Below, piece after piece: positions 7,014-18,795 of a DNA stretch of 38,103 nt. Made by a program: the position numbers and the translations under genes. Source of the stretch: a virus; IMG/VR virus record IMGVR_UViG_3300021335_000038, positions 1 through 38,103 of that record. The stretch is one strand, 5' to 3'. Within the stretch, counting starts at the first letter, position 1; every line of letters begins with the position of its first letter. Under the pieces are notes generated by a model, which ran no database searches, had not been told where the DNA came from, and was given only the letters and a program-made list of their open reading frames with translations.

Positions 7014-7042
7014 ATTATAATAGATGTGGGTTAAGAAGTCAA
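7014..7042 (-). promoter_or_regulatory. Sigma70-like promoter, leftward arm of divergent pair
   Basis: Reading leftward, TTGACT (7042-7037), 17 bases, TATAAT (7019-7014), preceded by AAAAAAGTTC. It starts the MazG-like unit. Its -35 box lies 38 bases from the -35 box of the opposite promoter, so the two polymerases would bind back to back. Confidence 0.88.
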
Positions 7043-7068
7043 GAACTTTTTTGCGGTTGAACCTACGC

Positions 7069-7109
7069 AAAAATAATTCTTGACGTCGTTAGGTGGTCGA
7101 TGATATAAT
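7069..7109 (+). promoter_or_regulatory. Sigma70-like promoter, rightward arm of divergent pair
   Basis: AAAAATAATTC then TTGACG (7080-7085), 18 bases, TATAAT (7104-7109). The A-rich lead is shared with six other rightward promoters. It drives hsp20 with a leader of about 95 bases that includes CTGTG/CACAG complementarity and a TTTTCCACA sequence (7132-7140) matching the DnaA-box consensus TTWTNCACA. Confidence 0.88.
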
Positions 7110-7616: not shown

Positions 7617-7880
7617 ATGAAAGATTTTCGCTGGCAAATTCTAGTAACTTTTATGTTACTAGCTACTGCTGTTTATTCAGCAGATGCGAAAGAGGTCGAA
7701 GAGGTAAAAGTAGTTGGAACGTACTTTGAGAAGCTTGGTGAAGGTGTGAGTGAGTATTATCTTCGCGCCGGGCTTACTAATGTATTTTTAAAGCACGAGT
7801 ACAACCCTGAGAAGGACGAATGGGAATACGTTCGTCCTGGCCGTAATCGACGAGAAAAGAAAGATAAAGATAAGCAGTAA
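7617..7880 (+). CDS. Small secreted protein
   Basis: 87 residues. The N-terminus MKDFRWQILVTFMLLATAVY followed by SADA is a good signal peptide, with cleavage probably after ADA. The mature part opens KEVEEVKVVGTYFEKLGEG, has YYLRAGLTNVFLKHEYNPEK and ends in a lysine/arginine-rich tail (RREKKDKDKQ). AGAGGATCTAAA upstream provides the ribosome-binding site. It is co-transcribed with hsp20 and closed by an intrinsic terminator eight bases after its stop. No family recognised; a periplasmic product from an early-type unit is unusual. Confidence 0.7.
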   Translation: MKDFRWQILVTFMLLATAVYSADAKEVEEVKVVGTYFEKLGEGVSEYYLRAGLTNVFLKHEYNPEKDEWEYVRPGRNRREKKDKDKQ

Positions 7881-7921: not shown

Positions 7922-8365
7922 ATGAACAGAGAAGCAGTATTTGAAACATTAAAAGTTGACGAAGGAGTTGTCTATGAAATCTACAACGACCACCTTGGAT
8001 ATGCGACGTTCGGAGTCGGGCACTTGGTACTTGAGTCAGACCCTGAGTTTGGACAGCCCCTCGGAACACCGGTTTCTGAAGAGAGGGTTCGTGAATGCTT
8101 TGAACGCGATCTCGATACAGCAATCAACGAATGCTCTATATTATACAAGGACAGCTGGGAAGGTTTTCCCGACGAGGTCCAGCAGATATTGGTCAACATG
8201 ATGTTTAATATGGGCCGTACTCGTCTTAGTAAGTTTAAAAACTTCAAAGTTGCGCTAGAAGACCACTCTTGGGCTCGCGCAGCAGTAGAAGGCCGGGATA
8301 GTTTATGGCATCGCCAAGTAACTAACCGAGCAGAAAGATTAATGGTGCGTTTGGAAGCAGTTTAA
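7922..8365 (+). CDS. T4-type lysozyme endolysin (GH24)
   Basis: 147 residues. The GH24 catalytic triad is in place: Glu14 (KVDEGV), Asp23 (IYNDHLGYATFG) and Thr29, with the same 9- and 6-residue spacing as T4 lysozyme Glu11-Asp20-Thr26. GVGHL, NMMFNMG and the C-terminal W-x-x-QVTNRAERL are also family hallmarks. It cleaves the N-acetylmuramic acid to N-acetylglucosamine bond of peptidoglycan. No signal peptide is present, so release to the periplasm should depend on a holin. It lies immediately after a strong terminator, away from the candidate spanin genes on the other strand. ATG 7922 follows AAGGAATA. Confidence 0.92.
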   Translation: MNREAVFETLKVDEGVVYEIYNDHLGYATFGVGHLVLESDPEFGQPLGTPVSEERVRECFERDLDTAINECSILYKDSWEGFPDEVQQILVNMMFNMGRTRLSKFKNFKVALEDHSWARAAVEGRDSLWHRQVTNRAERLMVRLEAV

Positions 8366-8970
8366 TGATAATACCCCCTTATTACAAAGGAGCGCACGCT
8401 ATAGTAGCCGCTCCAGGCCCTTCTTTAACAGAAGAAGTAGTAGAGCAACTAAGGGCTGTAAAAGACAGATACGCTATAATCGGAGTAGGGGATGCGTACC
8501 GTAGAATAGATTTTTTAGATGAGCTATATGCTTGCGATGCTAAATGGTGGAAAGTACACGGCCCAAGGATTCACGAATTAAAACCCACTTTTAGGTCTTG
8601 GTGCTACGATGAAGAAGGCATAAAATGGGGAGCAATAAAGGTAGAGGGAAGAACTGGAGCAGGGTTTTCTACCGATAATAGTAAAATACATTTTGGTTCT
8701 AATTCAGGTTATCAGACTTTAAACTTATGCTACCACTGGGGCTTTTCGAAAATTCTATTAGTAGGTTTTAATATGAGGCAGGTTGGGGGTAAGACACACT
8801 TCTTTGAAGGTAGAGACGCTTCTTTATCCACCCTCAGCCCTTATAATAAGTTTGTACAAGCTTTTAACAGTATTCAAAAAGATATAGCTGCTAAAATAGT
8901 TAATTGCACACCAGATTCCGCCCTTACAGTTTTTGATAAAAGCGATTTAGAAAAAGAGTTAAATTTATGA
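8365..8970 (+). CDS. DUF115 / sialyltransferase-like sugar transferase
   Basis: 201 residues. The N-terminal HAIVAAPGPSLTEEVVEQL motif, a nucleotide-binding-like loop followed by a helix, and the later GSNSGYQTLNLCYHWGFSKI and LLVGFNMRQVGG blocks are typical of the MAF-flag10/DUF115 and GT42-type sialyltransferase folds found in phages and often annotated as norphogenetic protein. The likely role is moving a sugar to the phage particle or host surface; donor and acceptor cannot be told. It starts where the lysozyme stops (base 8365 is shared) and overlaps the next glycosyltransferase by four bases. ATA- and AGA-rich codon use differs from that of hsp20 and lysozyme nearby. Confidence 0.7.
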   Translation: MIIPPYYKGAHAIVAAPGPSLTEEVVEQLRAVKDRYAIIGVGDAYRRIDFLDELYACDAKWWKVHGPRIHELKPTFRSWCYDEEGIKWGAIKVEGRTGAGFSTDNSKIHFGSNSGYQTLNLCYHWGFSKILLVGFNMRQVGGKTHFFEGRDASLSTLSPYNKFVQAFNSIQKDIAAKIVNCTPDSALTVFDKSDLEKELNL

Positions 8971-9662
8971 TTGATATAGTATGCTTTAAATGGGGCGACA
9001 AGTATAGTTCTGAATACGTTAATAAACTATATAATGCAGTAAAAAGAAATGTTACTGTCCCCCATAATTTTATTTGTTACACAGAAGACCCTACAGGAGT
9101 TGAGTGCGAGACAAGAGAATTTCTTGTAGACTTGCCCTACTGGTGGTACATTATAGGTCTTACAAATCCTCAACACAACCATTCTGAAAAAACAATTTAT
9201 ATGGATCTTGATACCATCATAACAGGAAATATAGATCATATAGTCTCCCTAGACGTTCCGTTTGCAACAATTAGTGATTTTTTCTCCCCTAAAGGCTTAC
9301 AGACCGCTTATATAATGTGGAATAAAGAAGTCGGCAGTAAGATATGGGACTTTTTTAATTCAAAATACTCCTCTAATGAATATGATACTCTAGGTTGCTG
9401 GGGAACTGGAGGCACCAATCAGTTTTTAGAAGAGTGTTTTGGTATCGTAAGATTGAATAAAAATAAAAAAGCGGGCATATCTGAAGTAGAGGTCAACCGA
9501 CTACAGAACCACTTCCCTTCCCAGTGTGTAAGCTATAAAGCTCAAATAGTAAAAAATAGATGGCAAGTTCTTCCTGATGATGTAAGGATGGTGTTTTTTC
9601 ACGGAAATCCTCCTCCTCACGAAGTAAGAGACTTAATCTGGATGAAAGATAATTGGATATGA
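8967..9662 (+). CDS. Glycosyltransferase, GT8-like
   Basis: 231 residues. The N-terminus MIDIVCFKWGDKYSSEYVNK starts a Rossmann-type GT-A fold, and the metal-binding D-x-D is seen in TIYMDLDTIITGNID (residues about 76-90). Later WGTGGTNQFLEE and VFFHGNPPPHEV resemble the acceptor-side and C-terminal H-x-G motifs of GT8-type enzymes. It should transfer a hexose from a nucleotide sugar. It overlaps both neighbouring transferase genes by four bases, so the three are made from one message. Donor and acceptor unknown. Confidence 0.78.
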   Translation: MIDIVCFKWGDKYSSEYVNKLYNAVKRNVTVPHNFICYTEDPTGVECETREFLVDLPYWWYIIGLTNPQHNHSEKTIYMDLDTIITGNIDHIVSLDVPFATISDFFSPKGLQTAYIMWNKEVGSKIWDFFNSKYSSNEYDTLGCWGTGGTNQFLEECFGIVRLNKNKKAGISEVEVNRLQNHFPSQCVSYKAQIVKNRWQVLPDDVRMVFFHGNPPPHEVRDLIWMKDNWI

Positions 9663-10480
9663 AAATTGTAACAAGTGCTACACCAGAATTTTTACCCGGA
9701 GTAACAGCTCTCAGAAATAGTATAGAAGCTAACTTTCCAGAAGGAGAGTTGCACTGCTTCTTTTATAGTAAAGGTCAGACAGACTTCGAACTTCCAGAAA
9801 GAGTGAGTTATATACACGAAGCCCCGCATTATGGCGTTCTTACAGATAACGGTAAGACTTTTAGACATGGACTTCCTCTAGGCCCTGATATGTACGCAAG
9901 AATACTTATACCTAAATATTTTACTGGTAGAGTATTTTATGTGGATGCGGATTGCTTAGTATTAAACAGCCTAAAAGAAGCGTGGGAATTAGATATGGGA
10001 AACCACTATAGTGCTTGCGTATATAGACCCGATATAGGGTGGCATGGAGGAAACCGTCATGATGATATGGCTAGTGGAACTTTTTTATGTGATTGCGAAA
10101 AGTGGAACGAAAAGGACTTAACTAAAGAGATGTATGTAGTTATGGACTTACACAATAAGCGTCAGTTAAGTGGAAGAAAGTTTGGCTTGAATGTAGAAAG
10201 TGTTTTAAGTTACGTTCACGATGGAAATTTCTACCATTTAGACCCCGGATATCAAAACCTTACCTACTATAATAGCTTAATACAGTCCGATAAGATAGCA
10301 CACTTCGCAGGCCCTAAGCCTTGGTTGATAGAAAAACATGACCTTAAAGCACATAAAGCAAACTACCACGACTTGTGGGATGCCTATTATTCAAACGATA
10401 TTGTAACAGCAAAACAAATTCAAAATAACCTACCTTCTATCAGAAAAAGAAATCAATTTGATAGAAACAGCAAGTATTAA
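9659..10480 (+). CDS. Glycosyltransferase family 8
   Basis: 273 residues from ATG 9659 (ATGA overlap with the upstream stop; an upstream TTG at 9653 is less likely). GT8 features are clear: the pair of motifs PDMYARILIPKYF and VFYVDADCLVLNSL with the D-A-D metal site at about residues 98-100, and IAHFAGPKPW near the C-terminus, the H-x-x-G-x-x-KPW signature. It uses a UDP-sugar to make a glycoside. With the preceding gene this makes two GT8-like enzymes in tandem, suggesting successive sugar additions to one glycan on virion or host surface. Confidence 0.85.
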   Translation: MKIVTSATPEFLPGVTALRNSIEANFPEGELHCFFYSKGQTDFELPERVSYIHEAPHYGVLTDNGKTFRHGLPLGPDMYARILIPKYFTGRVFYVDADCLVLNSLKEAWELDMGNHYSACVYRPDIGWHGGNRHDDMASGTFLCDCEKWNEKDLTKEMYVVMDLHNKRQLSGRKFGLNVESVLSYVHDGNFYHLDPGYQNLTYYNSLIQSDKIAHFAGPKPWLIEKHDLKAHKANYHDLWDAYYSNDIVTAKQIQNNLPSIRKRNQFDRNSKY

Positions 10481-10494
10481 AAAGGAGATAAAGA

Positions 10495-11412
10495 ATGAAA
10501 ATTTTAATAACTGGAGGAGCAGGCTTTATTGGTCGCTACACAGTAGAGGAATGTTTGGCAAGAGGGCACGAGCCTTTTATTTTTGATCATTATGATCGTA
10601 AAGAAGACTACCCCTGCCCCGTTATACTCGGAGATGTTCGGGATGATGCTGCAGTTACCGAAGCTATGGCTCACGCAGACGCTTGGATACACCTAGCTGC
10701 TGTACTAGGAACCCAAGAAACCGTATTCAATCCGCGCCCCGCTGCTCAATCTAACCTTATGGGTGGATTGAATATGCTAGAGGCAGCGGCACAGTATAAC
10801 TTGCCGGGTACCTATATTGGTGTCGGCAACTACTGGATGAACAATACGTACTCTATTACTAAAACAATGATTGAACGATTCATTGATATGTATAATCGTG
10901 ATCGAGACACTCGTGTTAACATTGTAAGAGCAATGAATGCATACGGACCTCGCCAGAGACCCGTTGCTCCTTGGGGCTGTAGTAAAGTTCGTAAAATTAC
11001 TCCTTCCTTCGCTTGTAGAGCATTATCAGGTATGGATGTAGAGGTTTACGGAGATGGACAGCAAGTATCAGATATGTGTTGGGTAGGTGACGTAGCCAAA
11101 GCTTTAGTAGTTGCTACAGAAAAAGCCGCTAAAGGAATAATATTCCCAGAACCTGTAGAAGTAGGCCCTGAGATTAATAGTACCGTTCAAGAAGTAGCTG
11201 AAATGATAGTAGGCTTGGCAGGTACTGATGCTAAATTAGTAAATTTACCGATGAGACCAGGAGAAATTGCTGGTTCAACTGTCGCTGCTGATGTTTCTAC
11301 ACTGAGACACGTTGATATGTCTCCTGAGGAGTTAATGCCTTTGGAAAGAGGTATGAAAATAACGATGGAACATTTTAGAGAGTTAGTAGACGAATATAAC
11401 GATACCCTATGA
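10495..11412 (+). CDS. NAD-dependent sugar epimerase/dehydratase
   Basis: 305 residues, an extended short-chain dehydrogenase. NAD-binding GGAGFIG lies at residues 7-13, the GDVRD block at about 46-50, and the catalytic pair is Tyr119 and Lys123 (NTYSITK). MNAYGPRQRP and the VEVYGDGQQVSDMCWVGDVA segment are typical of nucleotide-sugar epimerases and dehydratases. The enzyme would make the activated sugar used by the three transferases just upstream. Strong AAGGAGATAAAG ribosome-binding site, 14-base gap from the GT8 gene. The precise substrate cannot be read from sequence. Confidence 0.87.
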   Translation: MKILITGGAGFIGRYTVEECLARGHEPFIFDHYDRKEDYPCPVILGDVRDDAAVTEAMAHADAWIHLAAVLGTQETVFNPRPAAQSNLMGGLNMLEAAAQYNLPGTYIGVGNYWMNNTYSITKTMIERFIDMYNRDRDTRVNIVRAMNAYGPRQRPVAPWGCSKVRKITPSFACRALSGMDVEVYGDGQQVSDMCWVGDVAKALVVATEKAAKGIIFPEPVEVGPEINSTVQEVAEMIVGLAGTDAKLVNLPMRPGEIAGSTVAADVSTLRHVDMSPEELMPLERGMKITMEHFRELVDEYNDTL

Positions 11413-11413
11413 C

Positions 11414-11454
11414 AAAAAATAATTCTTGACAAATTTTTCGATTGGTCTCATAAT
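11414..11454 (+). promoter_or_regulatory. Sigma70-like promoter for the auxiliary-metabolism operon
   Basis: AAAAAATAATTC, TTGACA (11426-11431), 17 bases, CATAAT (11449-11454), starting two bases after the epimerase stop. It should drive 11478-15043. The message start would fall just ahead of ATG 11478, giving a short leader. Confidence 0.87.
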
Positions 11455-11477: not shown

Positions 11478-12074
11478 ATGAATCTTTTTTACTTAGATAG
11501 TGACCTCGACAAATGTGCAGAAGCGCACGTTGACAAGCATATTGTAAAAATGCCTCTCGAGGTTGCACAGATTTTATGCACGACCATTTGGATTGACACG
11601 CATCTGGGGTTTATTCCTCGCGAGTTGAATAAAGAAGAACGTGACCATCTAAATGAGCTAAAGAAAGAGATCAAACATCTTCCACCAGAGGAGAGACCCC
11701 TAACCCCATATTTACCTATGATGTATAACCATCCTTGCACAATATGGGCACGATCATCACTAGATAATCACGAATGGACGCATTGCTATGGTAATGCCCT
11801 AGGAGAAGAATACCGTTATCGCTATGGAAAGCAACACAAGTCAGTTACAGTTATCAACAACTTACCCGACCCAGTCAATCTTGAACGAGTGGGGTTCACC
11901 ACGTTTGGACTTGCGATGCCTGACATACTCAAAGACTATGACAATCCAATACAGTCTTATCGTGACTATTATCATCTTGACAAGGCTACTTTCGCCAGTT
12001 GGAGTGGTAGACCAACTCCCGATTGGTGGGATGAGTCTCTTGCTGACTATGAACAAAGGATCACAGCGAAATGA
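11478..12074 (+). CDS. Conserved phage protein, His-rich (MNLFYLD...DKHIVKM family)
   Basis: 198 residues from ATG 11478 (an ATG 21 bases upstream lies too close to the predicted transcription start). It opens MNLFYLDSDLDKCAEAHVDK followed by HIVKMPLEVAQ, later MMYNHPCTIWARSSLDNHEW, GEEYRYRYGKQHKS and a PDWWDESLADYE end. The conserved His, Cys and Trp residues suggest a metal-binding enzyme or nuclease. I recall this family in cyanophages and other marine phages, always annotated as hypothetical. It overlaps thyX by four bases, so a link to nucleotide metabolism or DNA repair is possible. Function unknown. Confidence 0.78.
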   Translation: MNLFYLDSDLDKCAEAHVDKHIVKMPLEVAQILCTTIWIDTHLGFIPRELNKEERDHLNELKKEIKHLPPEERPLTPYLPMMYNHPCTIWARSSLDNHEWTHCYGNALGEEYRYRYGKQHKSVTVINNLPDPVNLERVGFTTFGLAMPDILKDYDNPIQSYRDYYHLDKATFASWSGRPTPDWWDESLADYEQRITAK

Positions 12075-12760
12075 GTAAGGTAAGTTTAGTTGGCTTAACA
12101 AAGCCGAATGCTATGACTGGATGTAGTACGGCTGAAGAGCTAGTCGCATATGCGGCTAGAGTAAGCAATCCAGAAAATCAAAATCACCACGAAAGCGCAC
12201 CACGATTGCTTCGATACCTTATCAAGCACGGTCACTGGTCGCCCTTTGAGATGGTGAGTATTACTATGGAGATAGTAACAACTCGAGATATTGCTAGACA
12301 AATACTACGACACCGTAGTTTTAGCTTTCAAGAGTTTAGTCAGAGATACGCAGTACAGGGAAACTTTGTTCGTCGTGAAGCTCGACTACAAGACCCAAAG
12401 AACCGCCAGAACAGCATTGAGCTAGACGAGACGGAAGACTTTGGAAAGGGCGGTAATAAGTCTCCTCACGAGAGACTATATGAAGACTGGAGTATGAAAC
12501 AGGCTCAAGTAATCGAAGCATCAAAAAATGCTTACGAGTGGGCTCTGAATAATGGTATTGCCAAAGAGCAGGCCAGAGCTGTACTACCAGAAGGCAACAC
12601 AGAGTCAACCTTGTATATGAGTGGTACTCTTCGTTCGTGGATTCATTATTGCGAACTTCGTCGCGGACACGGCACACAAAAAGAGCATATGGTAGTGGCT
12701 GACCAGTGTTGGGACATTATAACACAACACTTTCCCGATGTAGCGGAGGCACTAGAATGA
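12071..12760 (+). CDS. thyX: Flavin-dependent thymidylate synthase
   Basis: 229 residues. The ThyX signature R-H-R-x(7)-S-x-R is present in full as [15 protein letters not shown] (residues about 77-91), with [10 protein letters not shown] and HGHWSPFEM before it and [20 protein letters not shown] and [10 protein letters not shown] after it. The enzyme methylates dUMP to dTMP using FAD, NADPH and methylene-tetrahydrofolate, and supplies thymidine for phage DNA synthesis. It acts as a tetramer in the cytoplasm. It overlaps both neighbours by four bases (ATGA), so it is translated together with the isocitrate lyase gene downstream. Confidence 0.95.
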
Positions 12761-13992
12761 GTAAGAGAAGAAGTTACAGCCCTGAAGTAGTAAGAAACCT
12801 CCAGGGTACACAACACATTGAGCACACTATTGCTCGAGATATGGCAGTAAAGATGCGGAAGTTGTTATCCGAAAATCCTTACGTCCATACGTTTGGAGCT
12901 TATAATGGACAACAAGCAGTACAGCACGTTAAAGCAGGACTTAAAGCAATTTATTGTTCGGGCTGGCAGGTCGCTGCGTCGGCTAACACATCGAATGAGG
13001 TATATCCAGATCAAAGCCTCTATCCGGTGGATTCGGTTCCGACTGTGGTACGCAACATCAACAATGCCTTTCGCAGACAAGATCAAATCGAGTATGCGGA
13101 AACAGGGGAAGGCTTTTCATTTGCACCGATTATCGCGGATGCAGAGGCAGGGTTTGGAGGAGTCTTAAATAGCTATGAGCTGGCACGAAATCTCATCGAA
13201 GCGGGAGCGGCAGGAGTCCACTTCGAAGACCAACTCTCCTCCGCCAAAAAGTGTGGACATCTCGGCGGGAAAGTTCTTATCCCTATTAGTGATGCCATTC
13301 GTAATCTTAACGCTGCTCGTCTCGCTGCTGATGTTTGTGGAACAGAGACACTCATCATTGCGAGAACAGACGCAGAGAGTGCGCAGTTACTCTCCAGTGA
13401 TTACTGCTCCGCTGATCGTAAGTGGATTAAAAGACACAGACAGGGCTCAAGTGGAAGCATTGCTGCTAGAACAGCAGATGGCTTCTGGCAAATCGAAGGT
13501 GGTTTGGAAATGGGGTGTGAGCGGGGGGCTGCATATGCAGAGTATGCCGATCTCGTCTGGTGCGAAACCAGCACTCCCTGTCTCAAAGACGCAAAACGAT
13601 TCGCTGACGCAGTAAAGGGTTCTTGCCCCAACGCTATGTTAGCGTATAACTGTTCTCCTAGCTTTAACTGGAGACAGTCAATACCTGGAGATACTGAACT
13701 TCAGGATTTTCAAATGGAGCTAGGTCGTATGGGCTTTAAGTTCCAATTTATTACACTTGGGGGATTTCATAGCACAAACTTTGCGGTATTTAACTTTGCT
13801 CGTCAGTATAAGCATCAAGGAATGCTTGCGTATAGTGACTTGCAAGAAGGAGAGTTCCGCGCAGAAGAGTTTGGGTATACGTCAACACGACACCAACGAG
13901 AAGTTGGAGTAGGTTATTTTGATGAAATTACAAAAGCACTTGGCGGGTCTACAGAAGCTCTCAAGGACTCTACAGAATCCGCACAATTTTAA
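12757..13992 (+). CDS. aceA: Isocitrate lyase
   Basis: 411 residues from ATG 12757 (overlaps thyX by four bases; a longer upstream frame is inside thyX). It aligns by eye along its whole length with bacterial isocitrate lyases: [11 protein letters not shown] (67-77), [13 protein letters not shown] (83-95), metal-binding [10 protein letters not shown] (126-135), the catalytic KKCGH loop (164-168, nucleophile Cys166), [18 protein letters not shown] (297-305), [12 protein letters not shown] and the C-terminal closing tail TESAQF. The enzyme splits isocitrate into succinate and glyoxylate, the first step of the glyoxylate shunt. Full length and KKCGH (not KRCGH) argue against methylisocitrate lyase, which is about 290 residues. 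No malate synthase gene is in the window. Confidence 0.95.
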
Positions 13993-14245
13993 ATACTTTA
14001 TACCCCTACTTCTCGTAGGGTGTACAACAGTAGAAGACGACAGAATATGTTTAGACTGGGGACATTATCCTATAGTAGAAGAGAAGTGTACCCCGCTTTA
14101 TGGTAGTTTAGTTTGTACTACCGAAGAAACCACCAAATATTGGTGTAAACTTTATGAGGAGACAAATGAAAAGATTAGTAGCAGTAACAATCGCTTTAAC
14201 ATCTACGATCACATGGGCAGACGATCGGTTTCAAGATATTCGTAA
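13922..14245 (+). CDS. Small cysteine-rich lipoprotein
   Basis: 107 residues from ATG 13922. A hydrophobic stretch [12 protein letters not shown] ends in a lipobox (L-V-G-C), but about 23 residues precede it, which is long for a lipoprotein signal; a TTG at 13943 would shorten it. The mature part has a regular cysteine pattern ([37 protein letters not shown]) that suggests two disulfides in the periplasm. It overlaps the end of the isocitrate lyase gene by 71 bases and the start of the cytochrome c gene by 80, unusually long overlaps. Its place between lyase and cytochrome could mean an envelope partner of the respiratory proteins, or just packing. Confidence 0.6.
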
Positions 14246-14474
14246 GCCTTGGGCACAGTGTGTAGCTTGTCATGGTGCACAAGGACAAGGCGGTATCGGT
14301 CCAGCACTAGTAGGACAGTCTGCTGATGATATTATCAACAAACTACTTGCATATAAGGCAGGAACTCCTGTAGGACCACAATCTGCTATGATGTATCCTG
14401 TAGCAAAGAGCCTTACTGATGGACAAATTGGCACTATTGGTGTGTTTGTTCAAGAGGGCTTTCCGGAGCAGTAA
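14166..14474 (+). CDS. Periplasmic class I cytochrome c
   Basis: 102 residues from ATG 14166, placed behind GAGGAG. Signal peptide [18 protein letters not shown], cleaved before DDRF. Heme attachment motif C-V-A-C-H at residues 32-36, then GQGGIGPALVGQ, and a candidate distal Met ligand at Met75 or Met76 (QSAMMYPVAKSL), with a C-terminal helix GQIGTIGVFVQE. This is the c4/c5-like mono-heme layout. It needs the host Ccm machinery for heme attachment in the periplasm and could carry electrons between bc1 complex and a terminal oxidase or another acceptor. It ends at the first base of the alternative oxidase ATG region (overlap of one base), so the two are co-translated. Confidence 0.92.
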   Translation: MKRLVAVTIALTSTITWADDRFQDIRKPWAQCVACHGAQGQGGIGPALVGQSADDIINKLLAYKAGTPVGPQSAMMYPVAKSLTDGQIGTIGVFVQEGFPEQ

Positions 14475-15043
14475 TGAGCGACTATTTTGCTAAATCTATG
14501 ACAAAGTTTTTTCGTTTCACTGCGGATACATTTTTTCGCGAGCGTTACGGTCATAGAGCAGTAGTTCTGGAAACCGTGGCCGCAGTGCCAGGTATGATTG
14601 CAGGGATGCTCACTCACTTTGCCAGCCTGCGTACATTAAAGCGTGGGTATGGCACAAAAATACACGCAATGCTCGAAGAAGCAGAGAACGAACGCAAACA
14701 CTTAATATTTGTGCTACACATTACAAAACCCACTCCGCTGGAAAAAATTATTATTACAGTGGCACAAGTATTATTTTCAATATTTTATTTCATTCTGTTC
14801 TTAGTTTCTTCAAAGACAGCGCACAGAATGATAGGTTATTTCGAAGAAGAAGCAGTGGTAAGCTATACTGATTATATACAGCAAATCGACGATGGGGTAA
14901 TAGAAAATATTGTAGCCCCACGACCTGCCATAGAGTATTACAGTTTACCCCCTACAGCAACTCTTCGAGATATGCTAGTATGTATTCGTAGAGATGAAGC
15001 CGGACACAGTGCCGCTAACCATCACTATGCAGATATATCTTGA
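14474..15043 (+). CDS. Alternative oxidase (di-iron quinol oxidase)
   Basis: 189 residues. All six di-iron ligands of the AOX family are visible: Glu33 in VLETVAAVPG, Glu73 and His76 in ENERKHL, the EEE run 124-126 in YFEEEAVVSYT, and Glu175 with His178 in RRDEAGHSAANH. RFTADTFFRERYGHRAVVLE and PAIEYYSLPPTATLRDM are also family-specific, and a hydrophobic segment (about 92-112) lies between the two halves. AOX sits on the inner face of the membrane and passes electrons from ubiquinol to oxygen, making water without pumping protons. The DEAGHSAANH ending is of the respiratory AOX type rather than the plastid-type PTOX found in cyanophages. Last gene of its operon. Confidence 0.93.
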   Translation: MSDYFAKSMTKFFRFTADTFFRERYGHRAVVLETVAAVPGMIAGMLTHFASLRTLKRGYGTKIHAMLEEAENERKHLIFVLHITKPTPLEKIIITVAQVLFSIFYFILFLVSSKTAHRMIGYFEEEAVVSYTDYIQQIDDGVIENIVAPRPAIEYYSLPPTATLRDMLVCIRRDEAGHSAANHHYADIS

Positions 15044-15068
15044 CATATTTATCAATAGCCTTTATAAT
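15040..15068 (+). promoter_or_regulatory. Sigma70-like promoter
   Basis: TTGACA (15040-15045), 17 bases, TATAAT (15063-15068). The -35 box overlaps the stop codon of the alternative oxidase gene. It lacks the long A-tract of the others but keeps TCTTGACA. It drives the 15091 HTH gene, whose GGAGG lies 12 bases downstream. Confidence 0.88.
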
Positions 15069-15738: not shown

Positions 15739-15985
15739 GGCCGCTCAATTATATGCTTTCTTCTGCCTAGTAACTTCCTTAACTATAGGTGTAATAAATG
15801 GTCAACTATTATGGATGACGAGACCTTTTGGTTGGGCAGGTAACTTTTCTTATATGTTTACTACTGTAATGGTCTCATTTTTATTTGCACCTATGTTTTT
15901 CGTTATATTATTATTTTTTGGGGGAGTATATCGCACAGCAATTTTTACTTCACTAATGCAATATGTAGACACGGATGATGAATAA
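15713..15985 (+). CDS. Small membrane protein, two spans
   Basis: 90 residues. Two hydrophobic segments, AQLYAFFCLVTSLTIGVING (about 11-30) and MFTTVMVSFLFAPMFFVILLF (about 48-68), are linked by QLLWMTRPFGWAGNFSY; the tail is acidic (QYVDTDDE). ATG 15713 overlaps the end of the HTH gene by 26 bases. I recall short marine phage proteins with a similar xxRPFGWAGNxSYM linker but no function. A role in the host inner membrane is likely; it could be a holin-like protein, although the position among regulatory genes does not support that specially. Confidence 0.68.
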   Translation: MESLPTLYEAAQLYAFFCLVTSLTIGVINGQLLWMTRPFGWAGNFSYMFTTVMVSFLFAPMFFVILLFFGGVYRTAIFTSLMQYVDTDDE

Positions 15986-18152: not shown

Positions 18153-18436
18153 TGGACGAAGAAAATGTATTTCTAATAGCCGGTTTTATTGATAGTGCTA
18201 CTGAGTATAAAGGTGCGATAGCCGTATACGACTACTTTTGGGCACTGACTCCTGATCTTCGTCAGAAGCTAATTGAGTCCTGGAGAAAGACTATTGATGA
18301 GCTAGAAAATGCCCATCCAGAATTAACTGATATATTTAACTCAGAAGACGAATACGGCTCTATGGCTGTCTTTTCTGACGAAGAGGCTGTAGAGATTCGT
18401 CCACCAAAAGATAATATACTAAAGTTCCCTTCATGA
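18152..18436 (+). CDS. Small acidic protein between ligase halves
   Basis: 94 residues, acidic, mostly helical: MDEENVFLIAGFIDSATEYK, IAVYDYFWALTPDLRQKLIE, then a SEDEYGSMAVFSDEEAVE acid region and an ILKFPS end. It overlaps the TAA of the first ligase gene (TAATGG) and the start of the GIY-YIG-like gene by four bases, so the three are one message. No family recognised. It may have come in with the endonuclease-like gene or be unrelated cargo. Confidence 0.65.
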   Translation: MDEENVFLIAGFIDSATEYKGAIAVYDYFWALTPDLRQKLIESWRKTIDELENAHPELTDIFNSEDEYGSMAVFSDEEAVEIRPPKDNILKFPS

Positions 18437-18795
18437 GTGGAGTATATAATCTTACATATTTTGAGAATCACCCAGAAGAAAAAGAACGCGATGGCGTACT
18501 GTACTGTGTGGTTCTAGTAAACCGTAAAACAAATAAAAGAGAGTGTTTGAAAATTGGAATTGCTTCAGGAAAAAATTGGAAGGATGTGTTACGTCGCAGT
18601 CGCGGATTTCACAACTACGATATTCGTATTCAACGTACCTATCACAGTACTCTTTTCAATGTATGGACGTTAGAGCAAGCTCTGCACGCAGAGTACGCTC
18701 ATTACCATTACAAGCCTATGGAAAAGTTCGGAGGGCACACAGAGTGCTTCGAGATAAAAAACGAGATTATTTTAGCTATACCATCAAAAAAATAA
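18433..18795 (+). CDS. GIY-YIG / T5orf172-like endonuclease domain protein
   Basis: 120 residues. The sequence GVLYCVVLVNRKTNKRECLK then IGIASGKNWKDVLRRSRGF has the LY-(x)n-KIGI core of the GIY-YIG superfamily (T5orf172/MUG113 type), an Arg in the following helix, and later EQALHAEYAHYHYKPM and FGGHTECFEI, which correspond to the catalytic Glu helix and the GG-x-TE-x-F ending. Such domains nick DNA and occur in homing endonucleases that sit between split phage genes. It lies between the two halves of the DNA ligase. The match is by motif; activity is not certain. Confidence 0.6.
   Translation: MSGVYNLTYFENHPEEKERDGVLYCVVLVNRKTNKRECLKIGIASGKNWKDVLRRSRGFHNYDIRIQRTYHSTLFNVWTLEQALHAEYAHYHYKPMEKFGGHTECFEIKNEIILAIPSKK

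Follow-up and report, generated by a model that had tools for sequence, protein, structure and literature searches.

Isocitrate lyase (ICL), a small lipoprotein, a cytochrome c and an alternative oxidase (AOX) are encoded side by side in a T5-like aquatic phage, and the lyase-cytochrome-oxidase order announced in a preliminary description of this DNA was found again in other T5-like and in T4-like phages, where the pairing of ICL and AOX is not accidental. As for its function, we give about an even chance to the interpretation that this is an auxiliary metabolic module reprogramming host carbon and electron flow, namely a carbon-sparing, electron-overflow programme that would sustain biosynthesis during infection.

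The gene unit and its phage context

The window, i.e., the whole stretch of 38,103 nt analysed, belongs to a T5-like phage, as the preliminary description held for its phage origin: downstream of the module, the same contig bears the T5 replication block, with split NAD ligase, D5, DnaB, primase, PolA, helicase, SbcCD, D15 exonuclease and NrdAB, and its PolA matches (43% over 99%) those of Vibrio and Aeromonas phages of ∼115−128 kb. Among the contig proteins searched, none was recognised as a virion protein, the 38-kb record being a fragment, and no tRNA gene was found in the whole window. The six genes named earlier were all recovered, on the + strand and at about the positions first assigned to them (Table 1).

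Table 1. Features of the gene unit and of the promoters at its two ends
Feature	Coordinates	Strand	Evidence or remark
sigma-70 type promoter TTGACA-17-CATAAT	11426..11454	+	11/12 match, head of unit
phrog_624 protein (PHROGs label: DNA binding protein)	11478..12074	+	PHROG E 1e-46; first gene
thyX, flavin-dependent thymidylate synthase	12071..12760	+	PF02511 3.5e-44
isocitrate lyase (ICL), short bacterial type, 411 aa	12757..13992	+	PF00463 4.7e-90
small Cys-rich lipoprotein	13922..14245	+	lipobox Cys and four invariant Cys
exported mono-haem cytochrome c (predicted)	14166..14474	+	PF00034 1.5e-5; CVACHG, distal Met
alternative oxidase (AOX), di-iron ubiquinol oxidase	14474..15043	+	PF01786 4.7e-65
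perfect sigma-70 consensus promoter TTGACA-17-TATAAT, next unit (phrog_3611)	15040..15068	+	overlaps AOX stop codon

The overlapping starts and stops also held up: from the phrog_624 protein to AOX, consecutive genes overlap by 4, 4, 71, 80 and 1 nt, and Shine-Dalgarno-like stretches precede most of the six starts, both features supporting one translationally coupled message. The only terminator-like site found on the + strand among the six genes was a weak stem of 6 pairs, located within thyX. The promoters proposed at the two ends proved to be real motif matches; sigma-70 sites with at least 11 of 12 matching positions number 9 in the whole window, versus a mean of 1.1 (maximum 4) in 40 dinucleotide shuffles of it. 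This layout supports region 11426−15043 as a single compact unit, with one predicted message, that follows a near-consensus promoter. Its first gene, the phrog_624 protein, often adjoins ICL or AOX in T5-like relatives.

As for selection, dN/dS was 0.04−0.14 where measurable (thyX 0.04, versus L083; ICL 0.08−0.09; cytochrome c 0.14), with 0.34 for the lipoprotein; the enzymes of the module look active and under purifying selection.

The encoded proteins

ICL bears the KKCGH signature, and its nearest solved structure is 6lrp (E 3e-148). The signature and active-site residues K165, C166, H168, W70, D85, D128, E130, E157 and R203, along with E270, N298, S300, S302 and T333, are invariant across 8 phage ICLs, and the phage enzymes form one clade separate from 25 cellular ICLs (SH-aLRT 99). 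Malate synthase (PF01274) had no match over the cut-off in 30 phage records, the window itself being a fragment, while the control genomes gave the expected signal; these phages therefore carry half of the glyoxylate shunt. Of the phage shunt coupled to a quinol oxidase that was first suggested, the ICL-AOX pairing stands, and the complete shunt does not.

In AOX, residues E33, E73, H76, E124, Y131, E175 and H178 are invariant in 19 phage sequences, and the same di-iron ligands (in the motifs LET, ENERxH, EEEAV and DExxH) and the Tyr align with those of trypanosome AOX. The six iron ligands and the fold are common to the trypanosome enzyme (3vv9, 5zdp), the predicted structure (pLDDT 84.8) matching 5zdp with a TM of 0.93 and an rmsd of 1.5. 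Differently from bacterial and mitochondrial AOX, the phage protein is a core of 189 aa without the mitochondrial N-terminal extension, it is phage-borne, and it resides in an operon with a cytochrome c.

Regarding its origin, the nearest cellular AOX genes are those of SAR86, Porticoccaceae, Limnobacter and Polynucleobacter, and in the tree the phage AOX rows group with proteobacterial AOX, with PTOX as a very long outgroup branch. Import of the cyanophage PTOX was rejected because the similarity is only remote, the S-N03 PTOX matching at 35% over 46% of the query (E 0.02). Cellular AOX adjoined such a cytochrome c in none of 79 loci, so that the module appears to have been assembled in phages, and the lifting of a whole host operon is not supported. 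A cytochrome accompanied just one "cellular" AOX, at L217 (a Synechococcus MAG by its label); this locus, which also has nrdA, nrdB and a glutaredoxin-like gene, looks like a misbinned phage contig; at L219, the cytochrome match was weak (E 3e-4) and failed the export-signal test. Short-form ICL is found in AOX-bearing Polynucleobacter, Limnobacter and a Pelagibacterales genome (53−58%); AOX-bearing SAR86, Porticoccaceae and SAR92 genomes gave weak matches only, to a different ICL form of ∼530−560 aa.

The cytochrome c resembles cytochromes c4, c5 and c553, and it has the class I c-type features (predicted export, CxxCH and distal Met); C32, C35, H36 and M76 are invariant in 19 sequences, and its homologues have a hydrophobic N-terminus or a lipobox, read as a predicted export signal. 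An upstream in-frame ATG is present at 14154, and in some phages the protein is apparently membrane-anchored or a lipoprotein. As for the Cys-rich lipoprotein of the unit, it matched no Pfam or PHROG family, and its structure model is of low confidence (pLDDT 63, pTM 0.28); of the 31 loci reached by searching with this protein alone, 20 contained ICL, AOX or cytochrome c.

Recurrence in other phages and precedents

The order ICL-lipoprotein-cytochrome c-AOX also occurs in the T5-like L009, and in the T4-like L038−L040, where ICL is followed by an additional small membrane protein; the order ICL-lipoprotein-AOX is found in L003, L010, L034 and L333. AOX rows located on ICL contigs make up 15 of 17 in one phage clade (of moderate support, 93/92) versus 0 of the 23 other phage rows (Fisher p 3e-9), and the ICL and AOX protein distances correlate (mirror r = 0.69, 0/5000 permutations); since the rows are related, both the Fisher and the permutation values overstate independence, and many of the contigs compared are fragments.

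The module is loose, and its ICL and AOX can occur apart. Many phages have AOX, or AOX and cytochrome c, but no ICL, and many others have ICL alone (G038, of 160 kb, and G039−G045). In T5-like relatives, the placement of the genes varies: before the ligase, between phoH and the helicase, with the cytochrome c beside DnaB, or singly. C48C1 (OQ984149), a complete T4-like phage of 156 kb, carries both AOX (56%) and ICL (75%), annotated merely as hypothetical proteins; it differs from the present contig in that the two genes are ∼18 kb apart and the cytochrome c family is absent.

Viral ICL is already in print (PMC4053976, PMC5332604, PMC10721903). Hurwitz 2013 treated viral aceA/aceB and proposed that succinate feeds electron transport (PMC4053976), and Nishimura 2017 presented an aceBA operon in a 179-kb T4-like environmental genome. 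The present case has in common with these a virus-encoded ICL and the proposal that electron transport draws on succinate, and it differs in lacking malate synthase across its 30 records; moreover, the passages on these genes mention no link to AOX, cytochrome c or a lipoprotein, all three found here. As for the oxidase, cyanophages carry the AOX-family quinol oxidase PTOX, and published cyanophage data point to infection diverting electrons to O2 by way of PTOX and COX (PMC5082946). The PTOX and plastocyanin of cyanomyoviruses likewise combine a phage-borne AOX-superfamily oxidase with a small carrier, in a proposed electron valve (PMC5082946, PMC3037559), but the present phages are T5-like and T4-like, with a c-type cytochrome as carrier and ICL as partner. 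In the open-access papers to which the search was confined, no report was found of a phage AOX beyond PTOX, or of a phage AOX with ICL; within that scope, the initial remark that no such phage module was known stands for the combination, and viral ICL and cyanophage PTOX are precedents for its parts.

Proposed role and alternative readings

By established biochemistry, the electron donor of AOX is quinol and not cytochrome c, and AOX pumps no protons; the pathway proposed in the preliminary description left the cytochrome c without a job. The ICL step bypasses the two decarboxylating, NADH- or NADPH-producing steps of the TCA cycle. In the carbon-sparing programme proposed here, phage ICL would cleave isocitrate and those steps would be skipped; succinate would pass electrons into ubiquinone through the host succinate dehydrogenase, and glyoxylate would become malate by the host malate synthase, or glycine for purines and one-carbon units. 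Ubiquinol would then be oxidised by AOX without proton pumping, and the extra cytochrome c could allow more electrons through the host branch of bc1 and cytochrome c oxidase. ICL and AOX would both cut the reductant and proton-motive yield per carbon and, once infection has distorted the ATP demand and biosynthesis of the host, they may plausibly maintain carbon flow to precursors, as the preliminary description proposed, and prevent over-reduction of the quinone pool; the analogue would be the flow proposed for PTOX and plastocyanin/cytochrome oxidase in cyanophages, set in a respiring heterotroph.

That ICL serves nucleotide synthesis instead, with glyoxylate transaminated to glycine for purines and ThyX one-carbon units, the succinate and the respiratory genes being secondary and AOX and cytochrome c a separate pair, is possible but rather unlikely. 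Gene neighbourhoods speak for it: ICL overlaps thyX here, thyX follows ICL in L082 and L083, and in a second, AOX-less phage group ICL is next to or between ribonucleotide reductase genes (in L110, nrdA at 7658, ICL at 9998 and nrdB at 15790); the absence of malate synthase and the AOX-cytochrome c pairs without ICL of several phages point the same way. Against it stand the clade link of ICL with AOX and the several backgrounds where ICL adjoins the lipoprotein and AOX.

AOX could also be a stress device, a role it is known to have in bacteria and mitochondria: with cytochrome oxidase blocked by phage products, by host defence or by environmental inhibitors (sulfide, NO, cyanide), it would sustain respiration and keep reactive oxygen low. 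The many phages with AOX and no ICL are in keeping with this, but it is improbable here: a co-carried cytochrome c would feed the blocked branch, and AOX is linked to ICL. Equally doubtful is the idea that AOX works together with the cytochrome c and the Cys-rich lipoprotein as its own branch, the cytochrome not being an extra supply to the host oxidase, and the whole a dedicated heterotrophic respiratory bypass on a cassette mobile between T5-like and T4-like phages; if true, this would amount to a novel type of electron-transfer assembly centred on an alternative oxidase. An energy boost, with succinate fuelling the chain for ATP and the phage cytochrome c raising oxidative phosphorylation, is the published interpretation of aceAB in viromes by Hurwitz et al. 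(PMC4053976), and the unit does include a cytochrome c gene; it is quite improbable here, given that a non-pumping AOX and an ICL that skips reductant-producing steps both lower ATP yield, by established biochemistry. Finally, passenger genes of a gene-exchange hotspot, or a contaminated or misassembled contig, are very improbable despite the varied sites and single occurrences in T5-like relatives: there are phage neighbours on both sides in many independent contigs, as in the complete phage C48C1, the reappearance of the module in related loci rules out chance and the bacterial misassembly considered at first, and purifying selection, repeated re-association and phage-specific clades argue against genes without functional coupling.

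In conclusion, most documented cases of phage control over electron transport concern cyanophages and photosynthesis; the carriage of this module, in a T5-like phage and in many unrelated ones, suggests that such phages alter the respiration of an infected non-photosynthetic bacterium much as cyanophages alter photosynthesis. A recurrent ICL/cytochrome c/AOX module in unrelated phage backgrounds would extend such control to respiring heterotrophs; genes of C48C1 labelled as hypothetical gain the names AOX and ICL, and infected cells are predicted to show a cyanide-resistant, uncoupled oxygen uptake, which could affect the estimates of oxygen use and carbon fate for aquatic viral infection.

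The six-gene unit and its products

The ORF listing and the profile searches placed six + strand genes between the head promoter and the AOX stop, bearing out the earlier reading of a promoter followed by a six-gene unit that ends in the alternative oxidase (AOX); in order, they encode a phrog_624 protein, ThyX, isocitrate lyase (ICL), a small lipoprotein, a mono-haem cytochrome c, and AOX. Successive genes overlap by 4, 4, 71, 80, and 1 nt, most starts are preceded by a Shine-Dalgarno-like stretch, and the window held nine promoter matches (threshold, 11 of 12 positions or better), whereas 40 dinucleotide shuffles averaged 1.1 and never exceeded 4; from these traits, a single predicted message from about 11455 to past 15043 is well supported.

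Features of the virus record (38,103 bases)
Position	Strand	Feature
7014-7109	both	Divergent sigma-70 consensus promoters, where leftward genes switch to rightward
8365-11412		Immediately upstream of the module: run of possible sugar/cell-surface genes (MptE-like, GT8 glycosyltransferase, nucleotide-sugar epimerase)
11426-11454		Promoter TTGACA-17-CATAAT, at the unit head
15040		Promoter TTGACA-17-TATAAT, perfect
15043	+	AOX stop
18433-18795		T5orf172 (GIY-YIG-type) domain gene, possibly a homing endonuclease, separating the two parts of the split NAD-dependent DNA ligase

Regarding the products, the AOX iron ligands (E33, E73, H76, E124, E175, H178) and Tyr131 were invariant in 19 phage sequences and lined up with trypanosome AOX in the alignment, and the predicted model (pLDDT 84.8) matched this enzyme with a TM of 0.93 and an rmsd of 1.5. 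ICL was of the short bacterial type (closest solved structure 6lrp, E 3e-148), with KKCGH and the remaining active-site residues invariant. The cytochrome, similar to c4/c5/c553 cytochromes, kept CxxCH and the distal Met in 19/19 compared sequences; the lipoprotein, which had no match in Pfam or PHROG, kept the lipobox Cys and four further Cys. The dN/dS values of ICL (0.08-0.09), cytochrome (0.14), and ThyX (0.04) indicate purifying selection on these genes; the lipoprotein, whose gene overlaps two others, had a value of 0.34, and for AOX pairs synonymous sites were saturated and non-synonymous change was low. In the alignment of phage cytochromes, the haem domain of several (e.g., L020, L027, L059) was preceded by a hydrophobic anchor at the N-terminus and by a conserved C-x-GEC-Y motif, and others (L038, L048, L094) resembled lipoproteins.

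Phage background and gene order in related loci

Downstream of the unit, a split NAD-dependent ligase, D5-like regulator, DnaB, primase, PolA, PhoH, helicase, SbcCD, D15-type exonuclease, and NrdAB were recognized as the T5 replication block. PolA had 43% identity over 99% of its length with that of Vibrio and Aeromonas phages (~115-128 kb); on sequence grounds, the contig is a piece of a T5-like phage, distant from the cultured ones.

Searches of viral contigs gave 76 AOX loci, 26 cytochrome loci, and the best 80 of 320 ICL loci. The lyase-cytochrome-AOX order, which the preliminary description had proposed to seek in related phages, was found in both T5-like and T4-like loci: L009, T5-like, repeated ICL-lipoprotein-cytochrome c-AOX, and L038-L040, T4-like, repeated the window order with a small membrane protein (MFKSIGF...) inserted between ICL and lipoprotein. 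ICL-lipoprotein-AOX occurred in L003, L010, and L034, and in L333 together with the same small membrane protein; in other T5-like relatives the module genes were present but dispersed. AOX was directly adjoined by cytochrome c in T5-like L027-L030, in T4-like L038-L040 and L048, and also in L019 and L032. Of 31 loci retrieved with the lipoprotein as the only query, 20 bear ICL, AOX, or cytochrome. T5-like L316 and L317 carried the lipoprotein, with ICL, AOX, and cytochrome not found on the stretch fetched, as if the cassette were gained or lost around it.

As for annotated phage genomes, C48C1 (OQ984149), complete, T4-like, and of 156 kb, was the sole one with both AOX and ICL; these genes are ~18 kb apart and both annotated as hypothetical. 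The cytochrome had no match in this collection. A NifU/IscU-like Fe-S scaffold gene is annotated in C48C1 (L002:34550-34921), and another lies directly 3' of the cytochrome c gene in L333 (L333:7401-8122); both are possible additional redox-related cargo. In L038-L040, a PsiE-like membrane protein gene overlaps the ICL start, with the small membrane protein gene after ICL (L040:7180-9243).

Origin of the module

Phage ICLs formed a single group in the tree, separate from 25 cellular ICLs (SH-aLRT 99), and 17 phage rows of the AOX tree, from T5-like and T4-like backgrounds, formed one group (support 93/92). ICL was on the same contig in 15/17 rows of this AOX group versus 0/23 other phage rows (Fisher p 3e-9), and ICL and AOX distances correlated over 18 loci (r 0.69, reached by 0/5000 permutations), with p-values that overstate the case because both tests ignore shared ancestry. 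Unless the genes were transferred together or repeatedly kept together, their occurrence in two unrelated types of phage is difficult to account for.

The closest cellular AOX genes were those of SAR86, Porticoccaceae, Limnobacter, Polynucleobacter, and Pelagibacteraceae. At the 79 cellular AOX loci, no gene for an exported c-type cytochrome lay on the same strand within 3 kb, and the SAR86 and Porticoccaceae genomes tested had ICL only as a longer, distant form; on these grounds, the module looks assembled in phages, not acquired as a host operon.

Two candidates were discounted. The CxxCH of a regular-expression match for an AOX-linked cytochrome in L188 was confined to the very C-terminus, and L217, filed as a Synechococcus MAG, is probably a misbinned phage contig and not a cellular AOX-cytochrome locus; it carries nrdA, an oxygenase-like gene, nrdB, cytochrome c, a glutaredoxin-like gene, and AOX (L217:206-6570).

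Metabolic role

In the proposed scheme, ICL would divert isocitrate carbon ahead of the two TCA steps that release CO2 and yield reductant, succinate would reduce quinone via the host succinate dehydrogenase, AOX would re-oxidise the quinol with no proton pumping, and the host bc1-oxidase branch would gain capacity from the phage cytochrome c. The coupling of the glyoxylate shunt to AOX, as put forward in the preliminary description, is partly supported: the ICL-AOX association recurs in related phages, but malate synthase was absent from the 30 phage records searched, and glyoxylate must therefore use the host malate synthase or become glycine.

A role of ICL in supplying nucleotide precursors is a strong competing explanation, or may be an added benefit: ICL overlaps thyX in the window, and a second phage group devoid of AOX has ICL beside ribonucleotide reductase genes. 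In this group (L103-L151, e.g., L110:7658-16899), ICL has ~60% identity to that of the window and adjoins or sits between the reductase genes; members searched whole had no AOX, cytochrome, or malate synthase. A simple energy boost (PMC4053976) is argued against, since ICL and AOX each cut the energy yield per carbon, which argues for the module as a carbon-sparing electron overflow.

Earlier reports describe viral aceA/aceB in viromes of the Pacific (PMC4053976), a 179-kb T4-like environmental genome with an aceBA operon (PMC5332604), and viral ICL from beneath the Ross Ice Shelf (PMC10721903). Cyanophages carry the plastoquinol terminal oxidase PTOX, of the AOX superfamily, and in infected Prochlorococcus electrons are thought to be routed to O2 via PTOX and COX (PMC5082946). 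The window AOX is only remotely similar to PTOX. None of the open-access papers searched describes phages of this sort with AOX, a cytochrome c, or the module as a whole. In conclusion, the module falls within a known kind of phage function, auxiliary metabolism acting on electron transport; what sets it apart is that it concerns respiration, in phages other than the cyanophage PTOX carriers, and that ICL, cytochrome c, and AOX are joined in one module.
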